From assembly GCF_003144195.1 (NCBI RefSeq), contig NW_020290036.1, forward strand, positions 1 to 64,000: a stretch of DNA of 64,000 bases, written 5' to 3'. Shown in pieces: positions 13,525 through 45,684 of this stretch; positions within the stretch are counted from its first letter, which is position 1; each line of letters opens with the position of its first letter. This stretch comes from Ceraceosorus guamensis (taxonomy: Eukaryota; Basidiomycota; Exobasidiomycetes; Ceraceosorales; Ceraceosoraceae). Under the pieces are notes generated by a model that did not search any database, was not told where the DNA came from, and saw only the letters and a program-made list of their open reading frames with translations. The position numbers and the translations under genes were made by a program.

Positions 13525-14422
13525 TCACTCGGGATTGACGACTACAGTTCTTCCCTTCTTACCATCTCGAGCTGTTTCCCTCTTCTTGTCCCTACTGAGC
13601 GCTTTTCTCATATCTGCAAAGACAAGGGTTCGACACGAAAAGTATGTGCCACTTCCGCGTCAGCATGCCCGTCTCTCCTCGACGGCTCTCATTGGTCGAC
13701 GCTACGCCCGAGTCCAGCGAGACGTGATGGAGAAAAAACGGAGAGCACTCTGCAATACTCACCCCATCCGTTCTCGTCAGTCCCTCCTGCTCCTCCTCCA
13801 GAGTAGTATTTGTCTACCGTGCGGTACACTTCATAACCCAGCTTTTCGTACATTGACACGGCGAGGTTGTTGGAAGGTCTGACGAACAAGTCTACAAAGT
13901 AAGACTGCAAAAGGGGTGGCGCGTCAACGTGTTTCAATTTCCCCCATTCTCATTCCGATTTTGCTTCGCACCATACTACGTCCCCGTTCCCCAACGCATC
14001 CATTCACATTCGCGTTTGAGCTCACGACTCACATTGTACACCTTTTCACTGGCATCCTCCAAAAGATTCATCAGACCCTTGGCCACTCCCAACCGTCTAA
14101 ATTCGGGCGCGACAGTGATAGCAGTAACGTGACCATGCCTCTCCTTGACCCTTTCCATGCCTGTATCTCTTCCTTCCGCTTTACCGATCACATATCCCAT
14201 CATCGATGCGTGGCCCCCTTCAAGCGACGCACCGTTCCGAGCCGCAGACTTGATATTGCAAGAGCCGCCACTGCTGCTGCTGTACTGAGTGTAGCATAGC
14301 TCGGGCCACTTGGAAATGTAGGTGAGGTAAAAAGATAGAGAATAAGTCTCTGTCCAATGATCTAGGTTAATCTGGTTGAACTTGAATAGGTCTGTTGCCC
14401 TAAAAGGCGTCAACAAAGACAT
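13525..14422 (-). CDS. NAT3: N-terminal acetyltransferase B catalytic subunit (NAA20/Nat3)
   Basis: Catalytic subunit of the NatB complex, which acetylates nascent proteins starting Met-Asp, Met-Glu or Met-Asn on the ribosome together with NAA25/Mdm20. Exon 1 (14422-14033) starts MSLLTPFRATDLFKFN and contains NLDHWTETY and FYLTYISKWPELC, all NAA20 signatures. The GNAT acetyl-CoA loop is RRLGVAKGLM, preceded by VTAITVAPEF. Exon 2 (13904-13763) has VDLFVRPSNNLAVSMYEKLGY and VYRTVDKYY. Exon 3 (13613-13525) has DMRKALSRDKKRET, the conserved tail. Phases close (206 residues). A serine-rich insertion follows TQY in exon 1. A GTGAGT donor overlaps the stop, so the last few residues may differ. The gene is divergent from the ATG10-fusion gene, with about 565 bp between the starts. 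Confidence 0.95.
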
Positions 14423-14987
14423 GTCTGGACGCCTTGTGGGACAAAGATGTGGGTATGTGCGCTTGTGTTCAGTAGCTGCTGGATGACGGCGAAGAGGGTG
14501 GGACACGTGTGTGCGTACGCTGCGATGAGAGCGCCTGAAACAGCACGAGGTGAGCAGAGAGCAAGTTGAATGGCGTGGCGTGGCGTGGCGATGATGATGG
14601 TGATATGGGTGATTGCCTTGAAGAATGATCCAGCGGCAGTCGCTAGCACAGATCAATAGAAGATGCTGATCGCCATCTTGGTCGGATCGAGCCTCACGTC
14701 ATGAGTCTTGAGTCAAAGTGGAGAGGAATGCATGGGGACTGTCACGTGGTGCGTCTGCCGAGCGCTGCAGTCAAGGATCGAGTGCGCACGGACAGAAGGC
14801 AGGAGGGCTTTCGCGCGGAGCATGGCGCGGCCGGTGTAACTCCGAAGCTCATCCGGAGCAGTCTCGCGCCTTATTCCATGAACAGGTGCAAGTCAGGGCA
14901 GAAGCTCTTTCCTTGCTCACCCTCATCACCTTTCTCCACTCTGCTGCTCCGCCTCAGACACAAGCTCATCTTGCCACACTTGCGAGC
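14423..14987. other. divergent promoter region NAA20 / ATG10-fusion gene
   Basis: Both neighbours start outward from this 565-bp stretch. It holds a (TGGCG)4 microsatellite at 14571-14590, an ATGATG run and a CACGTG E-box-like word near 14744. No further gene is visible. Confidence 0.6.
14571..14590. repeat. (TGGCG)4 microsatellite
   Basis: Four perfect TGGCG pentamers in the divergent promoter region. Confidence 0.85.
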
Positions 14988-17497
14988 ATGACCGAGCCCA
15001 TCAAACTACGCATCGGCTATGTTCCCGAGCATTTCTCTTCTCCCTTACTACAGCTAGGTCGTTCGTCATGGGGACTTGCTCACCTAGAACTCGTCTCACA
15101 ACCCAGCGGCACAGGTCAAATGCTCTCCTCCCTCTCATCTGATCAGGCCATGCAGCAAGAACAGAAAATAGATGTGGCTGTTGCGCTTACAGAGAGTCTG
15201 ATTGCTGCACTTGCCAAAGGAAGAGAGGATTTCAAACTTGTGGGGAGTTACGTCAAGAGCAGCTTGAATTGGTGAGTCTGGCGCTCCGGAGCGGTCTGCA
15301 GCGAGGAAGTAGAAGGCGCGGAAAGTCGGAGTGAGAGCATTCATCCTGATTGCTGAGTGCTGTGCTCGCTGCATGGAGCGCACCAAAAGTTGAGAGCGAA
15401 TCATCACTCCGACTCATTGCAGGGCTGTCATTACGGGTACATCGCCACATGCCGAGCGATACCAGAGCATTGAGGACCTCAAGGGAGAGAAGATTGGCAT
15501 CAGCAGAGTAGGCAGCGGTAGCATGGTCATGGCCAGCGTCATGGCCCTGCTGCAGTAAGTGATGCTGAGCTCTACCACACGACAGCGAATCTAGCCACTA
15601 ATCAGCACGACCCTTTTCACCCTGCACCGCTCGCAGAGGATGGACAGACAAGAATGGCAAAGCGTCAGAGGTGCACTTTAAAGGTAAGAGTGAAGCTAGA
15701 AGAAGGAATTTGCGCTTGTATGCTGTCGAACTACAGGGCAGCTGCTGAATTGTCACGATATCACGCCCAACTTCTGCCCTTGGTCCAGTGCAAGATACGT
15801 TCGAAAACTTGCGCAGAGGCGTCAACTTTCCCCCCAAACAAACTTCAGGTCCATCGGCGTCATCGCAGTCAGTCTCTTGTCTTCGATGCGCATGCCAACA
15901 GCAAGCGCAGCAGAGCGCAAGAGATCTGAATTTGCTCACACTTGCATCGTCTTCTTCGCCCCCAGCGCGCCTGTCTCCACTGCAAGTGGACAAATCAGTG
16001 CCGAAGACTTCGCAGATTCTGCCGAATCGTACGTGTCTAAATACTCCGACGGCTCTTCTCAGCCTTCGCTAGGAGCACACGTCTTCTCGGAAGGATGGAA
16101 GTATAGTGCTGCGCCTGTTCCTCTACTTGAACGCTCTTTCGATCTGCTTGCCGATCCAGCTAGACAGAATGAGGAGGCTCGCAGGACAGTGTTGCGCGTG
16201 CAGCAGGTCATTGCTAGGAGCTCTACTTGGGGCACACCGGTGCTTTATTTCAGAGCGAGCACAGCGGGTAAGCTCAGCTCTCATTCGGTCGAATTTACGC
16301 TCGCTTTTTGACATGTATTGCATCGCTTTGCTGATGTCGCGCGACCACAGAAGGAACATTGTTGACTCTACCGGAAATCGAGAGCTCCTCATTGCTTATT
16401 CGAAATACGGGCGAGAAGAGCAATACCACTCTCCCAATCCACACCACTTCCGCACCGACAGGCCTGGACGCAGATGCTCGGAATGCACCTTCAGAGTGGG
16501 CGTCGTTGTCGCTAGGCAACCATCCAGTGACGGACGAAACATGGATCATGCTTCATCCTTGTCAAACAGCTCCTTGGATCTCCCTTTTGCGCTCCAACGA
16601 CGCCTCGTCACAAAGTTCTAGCAGCTCGAGCGGCGTGCAGTACATCGAAGCCTTTATGAGCCTATGCGCTTCGGCCGTGCAGATGAGGTCTGATCAGAGC
16701 AGACCTGGTGCTGAGCAGGGCCCATCGCATCGTTCTGAGCATGGCCAATCAGTGGAGAAACCGGAAACGGCTGCTTTCATGTGGGAATGGTTCACCACGA
16801 AACCTTTTGTGGACTCTGGAGAGGTGAGTGAAAGCGCCGCTGGGAGTCAGGATGGAGAGAGATGGGTGCACGAAGGCTACTGACAGGCACGCCTCTGCTG
16901 ATACTGCACACTGCGCACTTGATGCTACAGGTGCGCTTCATCGGAAACGTACCGACTCCCTGGCCCAGCTGGAGCATAGCCGCATCCGTACCCACCGTTC
17001 TCTCCAACGCTTCATCGTCTGCCTCCTCCTCCGACTCTTCAAAAAGTCTCACCAAGCTGCACATCCTCAGCGACTTTCTCCATCGTCTTCAAGCTCAAAT
17101 CGTTCAGTTCACGTCGGACGAAGACGAAGCATTGCGATTCGTGCAGAGCGAAATGGGCTACGAAGCATCGGATGTGAGGCTGTGGTACGAGCGTGTGCGC
17201 TGGGTAGGAGATTCGCGTTCTTCGCTCGAAGAACAGCATTCTGTTCATTCGTCCAGCGTCGCTGCAAGCCAAACGCACAAGGGGAATGTGAAGACGAAGC
17301 AGACGGGACAAGATACTTCTACCAGCACAGTCTCCAAAGAGACGCTCTTGAGCACCCTACAAACCCTCCTTCGAGCCGGCGCTATCCCGGCGCCCAGCTC
17401 AGACGCAGACGATACGAACGACGCAGCCGCGTGGAATGTCAAAAGCTTCGTCCAGGCTTTACCCGGCCAGGGTGTCCAGTCTGGCTTGGTCGATTGA
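14988..17497 (+). CDS. periplasmic-binding-protein-like protein with an internal ATG10 E2-like domain
   Basis: Seven exons close exactly in phase: 14988-15271, 15423-15554, 15637-15683, 15789-15867, 15966-16267, 16351-16823 and 16931-17497, giving 627 residues. Residues 1 to about 170 are the first part of a type-II periplasmic-binding-like fold (Ca3427/NMT1-like): KLRIGYVPEHF, DVAVALTESLIAAL, KGEKIGISRVGSGSMVMAS and DTFENLRRGVN. The matching second part resumes at about 422 with AAFMWEWFTTKPFVDSGE and FIGNVPTPWPSW. Between them, at about 185-395, lies a complete ATG10: a GWKY segment, then TPVLYFRASTAEGTLLTLPEI, and SLGNHPV with IMLHPCQT. Cys352 matches the catalytic cysteine of ATG10, the E2-like enzyme that joins ATG12 to ATG5. 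The C-terminal YIEAFMSL segment also fits ATG10. No stop separates the ATG10 end from the resumed binding-protein domain, which lie in the same exon. The intron 4 donor (GTCAGT at 15868) is the weakest boundary. Family assignments are by motif recognition. Confidence 0.85.
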
Positions 17498-17975: not shown

Positions 17976-20900
17976 TCAGATCTCCTCGTCTTCATCCTTG
18001 GTGATCTCAGATGGCTTGAGCATACCAGGCACAGCTGCAGCCTTCTCTCTAGCTTCTGCAGCCTCAGCAGCAGCCTTCTCCGCCTTGTCATCCTGAAAGA
18101 GATCCTGATTATCTCCCTCCGAGCCGGCCAGCTCACGCGTCGTGAGCAGAAAGTCGCGCATGAGAGAGCTGTACGAGAAACTACCATGGTAAGCTTGAAA
18201 GGCAAAACAGCACCAACATTGCTTTGCAAACTGACCGGAATTGAGAGTCACGACCGTTGAGGTCAGAGTGGTAGGCTTCGTGCATGTTGAGGTCGCGCAG
18301 CTCAGCCTTGCGGAAGGTCAGTGCGCGCATGGTGGGATCTTGTGAGACGCTGAGCTTCGACAAGCCTTCGAGGAACGAGTCTACATATTTGGGATCGACG
18401 TGCGGAAAAGCAGTCTTGAGCCTGTTGAAAGATTGTAGAACAATGTCAGCATCTGCAGACACCCCACTTTAAGGGTCCCAGTCACTTACAAATTGGAGCA
18501 GTACTGCAGCAGGTACGAGTGGTTGTCCGTAACCCCTTCTGCCAATGGCACAGAGACCTTTTCGAACGCAACGGTTGCAAAGATCCGAGCCAGAAGCATG
18601 CACTGCAGTCTGAAGCCAGCTTTATGATCTGGCTCTGTCAGAACGAAAAAGACATCTTGCACGACTGGCAAAAGGTATTGCTGGTAGAAGCCTGCACTGA
18701 CTTCCGCGCTTTCCTGAGCGACATTGGCAAACAGCTCCAGCATGGTGTTGAGTCCCTGCTCGGCAACATCGCGTTGAGCATGCTTGAAAGCCCATACGAG
18801 GGCATCGACGAAGAGCTTGAACTTGGATGGGTCCAAAGAGAGCATCGCTGGGAAGCACTGTGCATTGATGGCGCGCAGCAGCTTGAAGAAGCCAACACGA
18901 TGCTCTGGGTACTCTGCAAAGTCTCGGTTGATCATGCCTAGCGTGGGCTCAAAGACTGCATCGAGTATCGGCGAGATCTTGTCGGTGAGCAGTGCACCGA
19001 GGCGAGCGGTGATAGTGGTCATGACGTTGAGCACCTCAGCCTCTCTCGCAGGCGGCACATTGTTGTGATAGTCCCCGAGAATGGCGTCCAGAAGAGAGGG
19101 GATCAGATTGACGTTCACCTGCTCCAGGTCTTCGGCGCGCTTGACGTAAGTCTCGACCAGATGCAATATGTCCTTTTTTATCGTGCGCAAGCCGCGCACC
19201 AAAGGAGTCTTTGTAGCGATGAGGCCGTCTGATTCCACCTTGGCGCTGATGACTCCGCTCACGCTTCGGTAGAGCGCGAGCATATCGAGATAGATTCTGC
19301 CGATTTGTGGTAGGAAGTAGGTGCCGATGGAGAAACAAGCCGAGACATTCGTCTTGAGGACATTCGACAGAATCTTGATGTTTTCAGAGTTGTTGAGGAC
19401 GTCAACATTGCTGTGTGCTTGGGACATGAGAGAGTCCCAAGCACTGTTTGGCAATTCCATCAGCTTGCTGATCAAGCGTTCCTGAGTCGGCTTGTTCGGT
19501 TGTGCAGCAATCATGTATCCGACCGCTTCGTAGAAGGTGTGGACTTGATGCGCTTGAAGATCAACAGTGATGCGGTGCAACGTACGAAGGATCTCGTCGA
19601 TGAAAGGCTCCTGTTCGTCCTTTTGTTGCATGACGAAGTGTCGCCTACATTTTTGAGCGATCTTGATGAATGTGTCGCACGCCATGTCCTGCACACCCTC
19701 GTGGGTCTCGTGCATGAACTCGAAATTCTTGTTGACCACTGTCTTCAGGAATTTCCAGTGAGCTTTAAGGAAGCGTGGATATTGGCCCACTATATACATG
19801 ATGTTCGAAGCGACGACCGCCTTGTTGTCTTTTCCGCGCTTCATCTCGCAGAGGCCCAGGAGATCCTTGATGACTGTGACCAGGAACCGCTTCTCTGCGT
19901 CTTCGCCTGTGGGCGCAGCCAGCGATGCATCAGCAGCGGCACGCCTTCTCGCTCGCTGAGTCGAGATGGCGACTCACTCATTGCACCCGAGATACTGCCG
20001 ATCGCCCAACACAATGTATTGAGGTTGCCCCAGCTCCATTCGGATCCGTCTACTTGCTTGGACAGCTTTTGTGTCATGATCTCCTCCGTGTCGAGGGTGT
20101 CTAGATGCGTCAAGTAGACCAGCACCTCTCTCATGGATTTGTACAACACGATGGTATCGCTCTCTTTCATGAATTCTCGCACGATCTCTCCTTCGTCGTT
20201 CTCCACCACCAGGACCTGGAGGCGATTCGCGCATTTTGTCAGCAATGGGAGCTGTCCAGAGGCTGTCATAGCCACCAAACTCACCTCTTCAGGCTTGACC
20301 ATGCGTTCGATCATGACTAGACGCAAATTGCTGAGAATCTGGCCGTACGTGTGCTTCCTCAAGTCGAGCGAAGCGGCAGCGCCAGAGGACCCGTTGCCCA
20401 AGCTCAGCCCAATAAGAGGATTCATTTCTGCCATGGGAAGCGTTTGCATCTCCTCGTAAAGCTGAAGCCAAGTGACGCAACATTTGTCAGTGCAGCGACA
20501 CGACGCGCTTTGCCCCAGTACACTCACAGACGCGACGAGCTTTGACCAGTACTCGAGACAGATCTTAAAAATCTCTCGTTCCGGCACTTGAGAAACTTTG
20601 ATCAGGTAAAGGTGCGCATTGAGAAGGACCTCACGATTCTCCGCATTTTCCACAAGGTGCAAGCGCTCATTCAGGAAGTTGCACAAAAACAATGCCAAGT
20701 TGAGAATCAGCTCTTGGTCATCGTTTGACGAAGACTCGTACGCTTCGGCGAAGTCTGTTCATCACAGCAGCCAAGTGTCAGCGAGGAGCGCGACTTGAGC
20801 AGTGAGATCTTCAGTATTACGACTCACTCGTGCTTGGAGGGATCATGCGATTGACCGAGGTCATGACCATGTTGAACAGGACGACGAACTTCTCATCGTA

Positions 20901-41958: not shown

Positions 41959-44900
41959 ATGGAGCCGCTCACTTTCGAAAAACGGCCTTTGGCTGGTGCA
42001 AAGTCTCCATCGTCGCCGATCTCGCAGCTGCCAACCACGTCTACAGAGGGCGCCCCTAAGCGGCATTTGGGCGGGGAAGTGCGCAGATCATCGTTCCGCT
42101 CTGCCGAAGAGAACGAAGAGAAACATGCGGCTGTCGCGTCCCCTGTCAAGAAGAGTCTACTGTCAGCAGCTCTTCTTGCGGGTCCTCCATCAACGCAGCA
42201 GAGGCGGGCAAGTGGGTGCGGGATTCTGAAGCGTGCCGAGCACTTCGGCGACGAGCCACAGAAACAGTCCAGCCCTGCATGCACTGCAGGTACGCAAGAT
42301 GCGGCCGCTCACTCACGGTAAGCGTTCTTTTGGAGGGGAGCGGGAGCAGGAGCGGGAGCATGAGCATGCGCCATGATGCGCTGACCTTCGATGTGTTGAT
42401 ATCACAGACACCCTTCACGCGCCCACTTTGTGGAACCTATGAAACCGGCGCGTGATGGCATCCGCCAAACTTCGCTGTTGTCGCCTGGTGTACAGGATGG
42501 CTTGATGGTCAACAATCAGCGTGTATTGCCTGCACTTCCAGCTCGCTCTGAGGACTCTTCCGGACCTAGTAATGGCTGTAAGCAGGCCGAAGCTTCGACA
42601 ACAGCAGGAACGCCTCTGCTTGCGATGCAGCCGGCAGTCCAGATCGAAGGTCGACAGCGCTCACTCGTCTTTTGTGATGCTCCATCTGAGGCTAAAGAGC
42701 GTGCAGCACCGCGAGCGGCAGCCGTCGCTTCCAGGCGCACCAGCGTAAATAAGCTGATGTCTCCCCCGGCTGCAATCGAAGCTGAAACCAGCAGTGATGA
42801 TGCTAGGGTACAGGCTTCGGCATTGACAGGTTCCGACACGGGTGACAGCGAAGACTTGGGTAGTAGCGTGGAGGAGGGTCATGCTACTGCTCGTTCACAC
42901 TATTCTACGGGGCTCACGAGTCAGCCGGCCAGCGGCGCCGAAGCAGAGACCATTGACCGCATACATGCAGTCCAGAAACAGCGGCATCCCTGTGATACTT
43001 CGGACAATGAGCTTTTGCCCGCGCATTCGTTGCGCGCTCCCGCTGGCTCTGCGACTGCGGACACCCGTGGCATCCGTTCGGATCACACACAACCTGGACC
43101 GCATGGACCGCACAGCACGTCTCCGTCGCTGCGCTTCTGCGGAGCGGTAGCAGCAGCCGCTGCGCGTCAGCGCACCCTGAAGTTTGCTTCTTCTCCTCGC
43201 GAAGTGGCTGAGCGTCATCGTCCTCATCGACTTGCGCCTTCCATCCCGGCGGCTAGTAGCAGAGGCGGCCTACTACTCAGCCCGCGATCACGCCCCTCCA
43301 AAATTAGCAAAGTCAGAAGCCCCTCCACGGACGAGGACGAAGCACCCTACGTGGACGTCATCCACGCCGCTGCAAATCAGCGCAAGCCTGTCGTCAGGGT
43401 GTTGGAGCCTGTTTGTCAGCAACCCACCCGAGGCGAGCGGGAAGCACACACGCGTGGCCGCCCTCGAGTATCGACGACAGAAGAGAAGCTGTCCTCGCTG
43501 GCTTCGCTCACAAAGCGCAGGGTATCTCGAGGAAGTCCTGCCCCTTCTGCACTCACCTACCAGGAAAAGGCAAAGGCTCTGAGAGGACCCCACGCGATGG
43601 GTGCTGGATCCCCCGCGCCTGGTCGCCGCCAGAGTCATGATGACTCAATAAGCTCGGGTGCGGAGCTGGCAGCGTCTGAGGAAGAGCGAAACTTATCGGC
43701 GTCCGAGGAGGAAGAGGCCGAGTATGACGAGGATTCCGACGATCTATATTCCGACGATGATGAAGAAGGCAGACAAGACGACGAGAGGGTCAGTGTACGA
43801 GAAGGGTTTGCGGCTGTCACTGATGGTAGAGACGGCCAGCGGCTTGCTCATCGATCATATGACGACGCACAGCTGGAGGACTCTCTCCCTTTGAGCCCCG
43901 AATTTGATGTAGAGACCAAATCTCTGCATTCAAACACCGATCGCTCGCACCAGCTCGGCTATACGTCCTCGAACCATTCTGGAGTGAGCAGGCCAGAATC
44001 ACCGGCCAACGCGATCTCAGCTGCAGACACACCCGCATTACATTTGGCAAGAATACCAAGGTCTTATCCTATCAGCCCGCGGCGCTCGGTCTCCTCGGCA
44101 GGCCCGTCGCCGACGATCGCTTCTACATCGTTTGGTCAAGCTGCTATCCAGTCTCTTGAAGAGTTCGCTCCTCTTCAGGCAGTTCAAAACGCTGTTGTGG
44201 AGAGGACATCAGGTGTCGAAGAAGAGCACTTGCCACCGCACGCGCCACGCGTCGCTTCACCTCACGTGCTTCACTTTGGTCAGTTGCCTCCGCATCGCTC
44301 GCTTCTCAGTGGCGGTCGTGCCTCTTCATCACACAAACTTCCGGTTGGATCTCAACAGCGAAGCTTGAGCACCGGTACCATGACTCGACGTGGAGTGCTT
44401 GTGGCTTCTGTATTGTCGCAAAGCCCAGAGCTCGCGCTACGCAGCCTGGACGCGGACGCTGTACTACCTCTGCTGGCGTTCCGACCAGAAGTATCAGCGC
44501 TGAGCGTCAATGGAGAGCGCTTGGGTAATGCTTGGCATCGACTTCGCCATTGTCTCGACGCAGAGGGGTCCGTCTCGGATGGAGACCTGCAGCGCAGGTC
44601 CAGGATGTCGCCATCCAGCGCCGCTTCTAAATTGTATGCGCTTGCTTCGCGCGCGACAAGCCCTTTTGCGGGACACCGAGACCAGACGAGCTCGAGAATT
44701 TCTTCTACTTCCCACTTTGCTGTGTCGCATGATGCAGCACATTCGTCAGCTGCCCTTACAGGCGCGGCCAAGGACGTCGACTTGCCGACACACGCAGCTT
44801 TCGCAGCCTCTTCCCCGCCTTCCTGCGATTTCGCGCCGCCAGAGGTCATGTCAGCCCCATGCTCTCCACAAAGACGAGCGACTGCATCGCTGCATCTGGC

Positions 44901-45684
44901 GCTTGAGACCGCTCCCCAAAGTGCAGCGACACAAGCAGTGGGCAGCGGCGCGACTAGGTCTGTTCGCGCGCTGCAGCGCACCATGACCGACGTGCACCAA
45001 CCACACCTTCGTCATCGCTCCTTTGGAGAGAAACTGCTCGAGACCATCCGACACGTCAAGGACGCTGCGACAGGTTCTGGCAGTCCCGCGGTGGTGTCGA
45101 CGTCTCCACTCGGCTTCGCACACCGCCATAACGCGAGTGAGGCAGAATCGACACCGAAAGATGCAGACCACCATCATGTTAGCCACCGGTTAGCTTCACC
45201 TCCACCTTTTGCGCTGCCCCCTCCTCTACAAGACGCTCATGCGTTGCGCGACATTCCATCACGATCAAATGCGCTACCATCACCTGCGCACAGGAAGCAG
45301 ACGCCCGTTCAGATTTCGAAACCTTTGCCTAGCGCTCAGGCTAGAGACGACGCACAGATCGTGGGCAAAAGACACGGCGAGCATCCTAGAAGAGCTGAGC
45401 ATCGCAAGGCGGAAGCGCGCTCTCGTCGATGCTCCAGCAGCGGCGGTCGTGCGCCTCGCGAAGATGCAGCCGTTGCGATACCTGATAGGCACAAGGTGCC
45501 GTCTTCTCCTCCTCCTTTCCCGTCCTCCGCTCACGCCCAAGAGCCTCTTGCGCAAAAGTCAAATGCACGTAATCGCTCGACGGGGACACGTCGGCGAAGA
45601 ACAGCAGATGCTGAGCTGGAGTTCGGCTGGGGCACATGCAAGCTTGGTCAGGCTGGGGTCTCAGACACAGTGCACGGCGCCTGA
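41959..45684 (+). CDS. large Ser/Ala/Arg-rich protein of unknown function
   Basis: Not recognised; 1211 residues in two exons (41959-42317 and 42408-45684) that join in phase to give HSRHPSRAHFVEPMKP. The protein is low-complexity and probably mostly disordered. It carries recurring short words built on a basic residue, a hydrophobic residue and F near Ala/Pro: RSLVFCDAPS, LRFCGAVAA, TLKFASSPREV, AHFVEPM. These resemble PP1-docking (RVxF-like) motifs, but that is only a suggestion. A strongly acidic block (EEEEAEYDEDSDDLYSDDDEE) lies near residue 560. The one segment that looks folded is RGVLVASVLSQSPELALRSL, then DADAVLPLLAFRPEVSAL and GNAWHRLRHCLD, in the C-terminal half. No membrane segment. 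It converges on the F-box-like gene. Confidence 0.75.
42333..42366. repeat. GGGAGC/AGGAGC hexamer repeat in an intron
   Basis: Imperfect GGAGCG/GGAGCA hexamers followed by ATGAGC units inside the single intron of the large unknown gene. Simple repeat. Confidence 0.7.

Follow-up and report, generated by a model that had tools for sequence, protein, structure and literature searches.

Could an autophagy enzyme of the E2 type be lodged in a loop of an unrelated ligand-binding protein? The question is raised by a gene at positions 14988-17497 on the forward strand of contig C41 in the 23.8-Mb Ceraceosorus guamensis assembly, within the 64,000-nucleotide stretch of DNA analysed here (the window). 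An earlier note on this DNA had read the gene as a periplasmic-binding-protein (PBP)-like protein with a complete ATG10 domain nested inside it. The analysis suggests that the product is probably one chain, a CA3427-like PBP with ATG10 in a loop of its domain II, which would be flexibly tethered at both ends and would act as the cell's ATG12 E2.

A PBP fold interrupted by an ATG10-like domain

The spliced frame of seven exons comprises 1884 bases, that is 627 codons and one terminal stop, with all introns of the GT..AG type, and its 627-residue product is letter for letter the C. guamensis protein IE81DRAFT_341972 (P0001). Pfam finds the Ca3427-like PBP family (PF22384) in this protein in two stretches that flank the insert (76.9 bits, cut-off 27); without the insert the two become one full-length match of 83.0 bits. 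Once the insert is left out, the PBP aligns with Candida albicans CA3427 (PDB 2x7p) at an E-value of 6.8e-39, and the profile of an alignment of 56 of 134 returned proteins (A1) finds 2x7p among PDB entries at 8.1e-66. Three designed PDB proteins also reached by the A1 profile (1e-4 to 2e-3) align over a helical stretch only and were taken as chance matches. Structure modelling predicts a class II PBP fold.

In the alignment with 2x7p, the insertion site falls at about residues 156-158 of CA3427, within domain II (88-183) and a few positions ahead of E164 in the cleft. Both Ceraceosorus proteins have a loop of 256 residues between N167 and F424, versus 4-10 in 54/54 other rows of A1. Over the 132 other returned proteins, a pattern describing this loop matched 127, with lengths of 6 (84 proteins), 9 (35), 10 (5), 11, 14 and 19 residues (one each). 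It was unmatched in P0007, P0009, P0017, P0046 and P0134, and in P0007, P0046 and P0134 no long insert before PTPW was seen. The tripeptide HPC occurs in none of the 132. At its 3' edge (..EKPETAAFMWEWF) the insert is similar to the P0048 loop (QEPGLETAAFMWEWV). E11, H12, E164 and T167 in the CA3427 cleft are kept as E14, H15, E427 and T430; across the 56 rows E14, E427 and T430 are invariant and H15 is present in at least 90%. These are the E, H, E and T described as conserved in the ligand cleft of the CA3427 family (PMC3073944).

The inserted part matches PF03987 (Autophagy_act_C) at residues 248-392 of the fused protein with 56.0 bits (E 6.7e-15, cut-off 24.4), and the ATG10 segment alone reaches 58.8 bits, with no family besides PF03987 at E<=1. 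The match covers model positions 78-187 of 193, the catalytic part only; residues 191-247 were counted into the domain by reading only. Cys352 lies in HPCQT and is kept in both Ceraceosorus species; a catalytic cysteine in HPC is presumably the form that the motif takes in ATG10, and we take HPCQT, NHPV and PVLYFR to be ATG10-like motifs. The note's claims of a split fold, of seven exons joined in phase and of this cysteine motif were thus borne out, whereas "complete ATG10" is only partly supported, through the match to the catalytic part.

The ATG10 segment is divergent. Among 457 stand-alone candidates no relative was found at E<=0.001, under a length limit that also leaves out fused proteins, and a sequence comparison of this part with the PDB gave one chance match (E 0.16), and none with a condensed query. 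A PDB fold search had no ATG10 or ATG3 among the best 50 of 724 rows or the 50 entries listed; the rows and entries listed are PBP-type folds. The missing fold match says little, because the ATG10 region is badly modelled.

Conservation in two Ceraceosorus species

When the whole protein served as query, 18 of 7999 scored candidates (about 345-1097 residues long) reached E<=0.001. Both domains are present in two of the 18, the C. guamensis protein and one from C. bombacis, which has 629 residues, 94% identity and the same annotated fused layout. This second occurrence is the strongest support for the architecture that the note described. A search with the PBP part alone gave 786 relatives, with PF03987 in none of the 120 matches listed, under a limit of 572 residues that would hide fusions this large.

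Identities between the two Ceraceosorus proteins are 163/167 in the N-terminal PBP part, 22/23 in linker 1, 194/205 in the ATG10 domain, 17/21 in linker 2, 117/123 in the C-terminal PBP part (one gapped column) and 80/87 in the tail (three gapped columns). No gapped column occurs in residues 168-416. The two records presumably stem from the ex-type strains. That of C. guamensis is MCA4658, which came from a healthy leaf in Guam, and that of C. bombacis is ATCC 22867 (PMC11687029).

Seven other CA3427-like PBPs (P0007, P0008, P0010, P0012, P0013, P0014 and P0015) are annotated with unrelated further domains, among them peptidase C48, RNA methyltransferase, tripeptidyl peptidase, 26S proteasome AAA and short-chain dehydrogenase. 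Two Wallemia species share the pairing with the dehydrogenase, two polypore records share that with the proteasome domain, and some of these multi-domain entries may be more than merged gene models.

ATG12 conjugation genes in the genome

A profile search of the contigs with PF03987 matched two places, the fused gene and a locus on contig C7 that is read as ATG3 (169.6 bits, model positions 1-187, HPCKH). Searching the genome directly with the ATG10 part found the fused gene only; exons were read one by one in this search, and a very divergent second ATG10 could escape it. Searches with the PBP part and with PF22384 likewise found this gene only, so that no second ATG10 and no second PBP-like gene, both of which the note had suggested looking for, was detected. 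The separate ATG3 gene and the ATG10-like motifs HPCQT, NHPV and PVLYFR favour the identification of the insert as ATG10.

ATG7, ATG5 and ATG12 are present in the genome. The spliced ATG12 frame (G000:C44:23700-25700) ends in TQAAWG and a stop, and thus keeps its terminal glycine. The ATG5 locus (G000:C3:403400-405900), spliced in part, reads FMSMVKEADF, which we take to be the form of the acceptor-lysine region found in human ATG5. In species without ATG10, such as Komagataella and apicomplexans, ATG12 and ATG5 associate non-covalently and the glycine is not needed; however, one charophyte in which ATG10 was not detected still keeps it (PMC6652269, PMC11764061). The ATG12 glycine is therefore supportive evidence, not proof. 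No clear ATG10 ortholog was reported from Cryptococcus (PMC6988817), and the homology of the S. pombe ATG10 was described as distant (PMC3738441); it is therefore unsurprising that a basidiomycete should have a divergent one.

Exon layout and neighbouring genes

Exon 1 (14988..15271) carries the start codon and the N-terminal part of the CA3427-like PBP with ligand residues E14 and H15, as seen in the spliced frame and the match to 2x7p. The PBP domain continues through exon 2 (15423..15554), where the PF22384 match begins, and exon 3 (15637..15683). The first PBP part ends in exon 4 (15789..15867) with DTFENLRRGVN (residues 157-167), as placed by alignment, and linker 1 begins there. An exon-4 donor at 15848 was rejected because it breaks the phase, whereas the donor at 15867 gives the 627-residue frame. 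Intron 4 (15868..15965; 98 bases, GTCAGT..CCCCAG) cannot be retained without ending the frame at codon 249.

Exon 5 (15966..16267) holds the remainder of linker 1 and the N-terminal half of the ATG10 domain, with SAEDF at 15997 and PVLYFR (residues 272-277) at 16237-16254. Exon 6 (16351..16823) holds its C-terminal half, linker 2 and the resumed PBP, assigned from the spliced frame and Pfam; as the note had observed, the ATG10 C-terminus and the resumed PBP share this exon with no stop between them. Its motifs are NHPV (residues 338-341) at 16518-16529, HPCQT (residues 350-354) at 16554-16568 with the codon of Cys352 from 16560, and AAFMWEWF (residues 422-429) at 16770-16793, which is in the segment of E427 and T430. 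The ATG10 domain as delimited here (residues 191-395) extends over 15994..16692, including intron 5 (16268-16350). Exon 7 (16931..17497) encodes the remaining PBP with the PTPWPSW motif, the C-terminal tail and the stop codon. All of these features are on the plus strand.

The gene lies between two minus-strand frames, one for a GNAT acetyltransferase (13976-14698) and one for CRM1/exportin (18486-19973). Elsewhere in the window an open frame of 1094 codons (42400-45681, plus strand) has no Pfam match at E<=1e-5.

Codon usage and alternative explanations

Codon scores were trained on ten open frames of at least 300 codons within the window (76 windows). Exon 5 and the ATG10 part of exon 6 score 0.130 and 0.084 in frame, versus 0.153 +- 0.090 for the training frames and -0.195 +- 0.112 for out-of-frame windows. 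Single intron frames may also score high (intron 2 reaches 0.309 in one frame), so that the codon score is weak evidence, and the scores of the linkers are uninformative.

Several observations weigh against one fused chain. Both Ceraceosorus fusions are known from gene predictions alone, and the intron-4 donor GTCAGT departs from the usual GTRAGT; the same donor is used in the spliced ATG12 model of this genome. Linker 2 has a higher codon score in two other frames, and an open run of its length, about 26 codons, could plausibly arise by chance. PF03987 positions 1-77 are unmatched in the insert, the family is common to ATG3, and the ATG3 of this genome, taken in two pieces, likewise matches PF03987 and no other family (positions 1-72 and 57-186). 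The structure prediction that the note had called for gave a modelled PBP fold, but the AlphaFold2 model of the ATG10 part is poor, with 198 of residues 174-414, where the alignment holds two sequences, in segments with a predicted local distance difference test (pLDDT) score below 50. Several CA3427-like entries (for example P0007, P0010 and P0012 with their unrelated domains) look like merged neighbours, and fusions annotated in this family should be treated with care for that reason. Finally, an in-phase GT..AG join from 15848 to 16752 exists that would yield a PBP of 386 residues with a 15-residue loop, though both of its sites look weak.

This last join would suit nested or alternatively spliced genes, in which ATG10 lies inside a long PBP intron, a PBP-only mRNA is spliced from about 15848 to about 16752, and ATG10 starts at an internal ATG at 15886. 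In-frame ATGs are indeed present at 15886 and 15892 within intron 4, and a 15-residue loop is within the range of the family, as P0104 has one of 19 residues. However, the PBP-only intron would be 904 bases long, compared with 82-151 for each of the six modelled introns, and its acceptor (AGCATGGCCAATCAG) lacks a pyrimidine tract. Among joins of donors at 15800-15965 with acceptors at 16600-16789, no GT..AG pair that keeps RRGVN gives a loop of 14 residues or fewer. A separate ATG10 would have no stop of its own: its frame stays open across the resumed PBP in exon 6 and closes in intron 6, at about 16883. Skipping of exon 5 shifts the frame, and C. bombacis is also annotated with the fused product, with linkers free of indels. 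Separate transcripts appear unlikely. An artefact of gene modelling or assembly, in which neighbouring or wrongly joined pieces are presented as one protein, would find precedent in the merged-looking entries of the family, but it is hardly credible here: the ATG10 part is inserted inside a single exon frame, this layout recurs in the records of two species, and the codon scores of the ATG10 exons resemble those of training frames. An end-to-end merge of neighbours was ruled out, as ATG10 lies within a single PBP fold and exon 6 encodes parts of both.

Two further explanations accept the fused chain and differ on what the insert does. The ATG10 domain could be dead or dispensable, with ATG12 and ATG5 binding non-covalently as in Komagataella and apicomplexans. 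ATG10 is often lost in evolution (PMC11764061), and the domain is so divergent that none of the 457 stand-alone candidates passes the E-value threshold; conversely, both species retain the HPC cysteine, their domains are identical at 194 of 205 positions, and the ATG12 terminal glycine and the ATG5 lysine motif are kept, which makes a dead domain very unlikely. The insert could also be a second, divergent ATG3-type E2 for ATG8, the true ATG10 being lost or undetected. Because the genome's ATG3 also matches PF03987 alone, Pfam by itself cannot tell the two enzymes apart. The published description of ATG3 includes Autophagy_N and Autophagy_Cterm in addition to Autophagy_act_C (PMC3407069), but the absence of the first two domains from the insert could not serve as proof of ATG10, as the pieces of the genome's own ATG3 failed as a control in the same way. 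A separate, full-length ATG3 place with HPCKH nevertheless exists and matches the first 77 model positions that the insert leaves unmatched, the three motifs of the insert are ATG10-like, and ATG12 and ATG5 keep their conjugation residues. An ATG3-type insert is thus highly improbable.

A model for the fused protein

In the favoured reading of a single fused chain, the ATG10 domain would be inserted in a loop of the smaller PBP lobe, domain II, and the PBP would close around it as though it were absent. The linkers on each side of the insert, about 24 and 26 residues long, are probably disordered, and the domain would be suspended on them. The fused ATG10 would accept ATG12 from ATG7 on Cys352 and transfer it to an ATG5 lysine; this ordinary ATG10 task is the most likely one because no other ATG10 was found in the genome. 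The likeliest consequence of the fusion would be that the E2 and the PBP are always made in a 1:1 ratio and always occur together. The sequence itself shows the open frame, its conservation in two species and the set of conjugation genes; the PBP fold comes from modelling, and translation as a single chain, E2 activity and tethering are inferred.

CA3427 consists of two lobes with a hydrophobic cleft; its ligand was unidentified in 2011, was thought to be perhaps a lipid, and a long hydrophobic molecule, an acyl lipid or a carotenoid, was proposed (PMC3073944). The Ceraceosorus PBP may likewise hold a long hydrophobic ligand. Coupling of the enzyme to such a ligand is conceivable, since the cleft has kept its residues and the insert lies in the moving lobe: opening and closing of the PBP lobes could make Cys352 more or less accessible to ATG7, ATG12 or ATG5, or the PBP could bring the E2 to lipid. 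Ligand regulation of this kind, one form of the tie between ATG12-ATG5 conjugation and small-molecule sensing that the note had proposed, seems unlikely, and loose tethering fits at least as well as allosteric coupling, because probably disordered linkers bound the insert on both sides. If regulation did occur, ATG12-ATG5 conjugation in Ceraceosorus would respond to lipid state.

Comparison with known systems

Both domains are of known kinds, and a natural domain insertion of this type common to two species of one genus is new to us. Among the relatives examined, gene models place the arrangement in what appear to be only the two Ceraceosorus species, and no report of ATG10 fused to a PBP was found in a literature search conducted mostly at the level of titles and the beginnings of abstracts. 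ATG10 is known as a small E2 that stands by itself; in at least two species it seems to have persisted solely within an unrelated ligand-binding fold. As a natural experiment, the fusion would show to what extent an E2 can bear anchoring at both ends, and the effects of losing the insert on ATG12-ATG5 conjugation should be readable directly, because it is the only ATG10 found. It also offers a way into the fungal CA3427 family, which had no assigned function in 2011 (PMC3073944). As a natural PBP domain insertion, the fusion is comparable to engineered biosensors; PBP domain insertions have been built for that purpose.

The likeness to ATG10 lies in an Autophagy_act_C match above the Pfam cut-off, in the HPC cysteine and in a genome that also encodes ATG7, ATG5 and ATG12 with its glycine. 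ATG10 itself is described as an E2 fold with two extra strands (PMC12005411); in the insert this part of the model is of low confidence. The genome's ATG3 and the insert are alike in belonging to PF03987 and in having the HPC cysteine, but ATG3 is a separate gene that matches the whole PF03987 model and reads HPCKH, whereas the insert matches positions 78-187 and reads HPCQT. Yeast ATG10 is listed as having Autophagy_act_C alone (PMC3407069), whereas the Ceraceosorus ATG10 is embedded, with PF22384 on both sides. CA3427 (PDB 2x7p/2x7q, PF22384) and 54 other aligned relatives have an uninterrupted fold, whereas the Ceraceosorus proteins carry 256 residues with ATG10 in the domain II loop.
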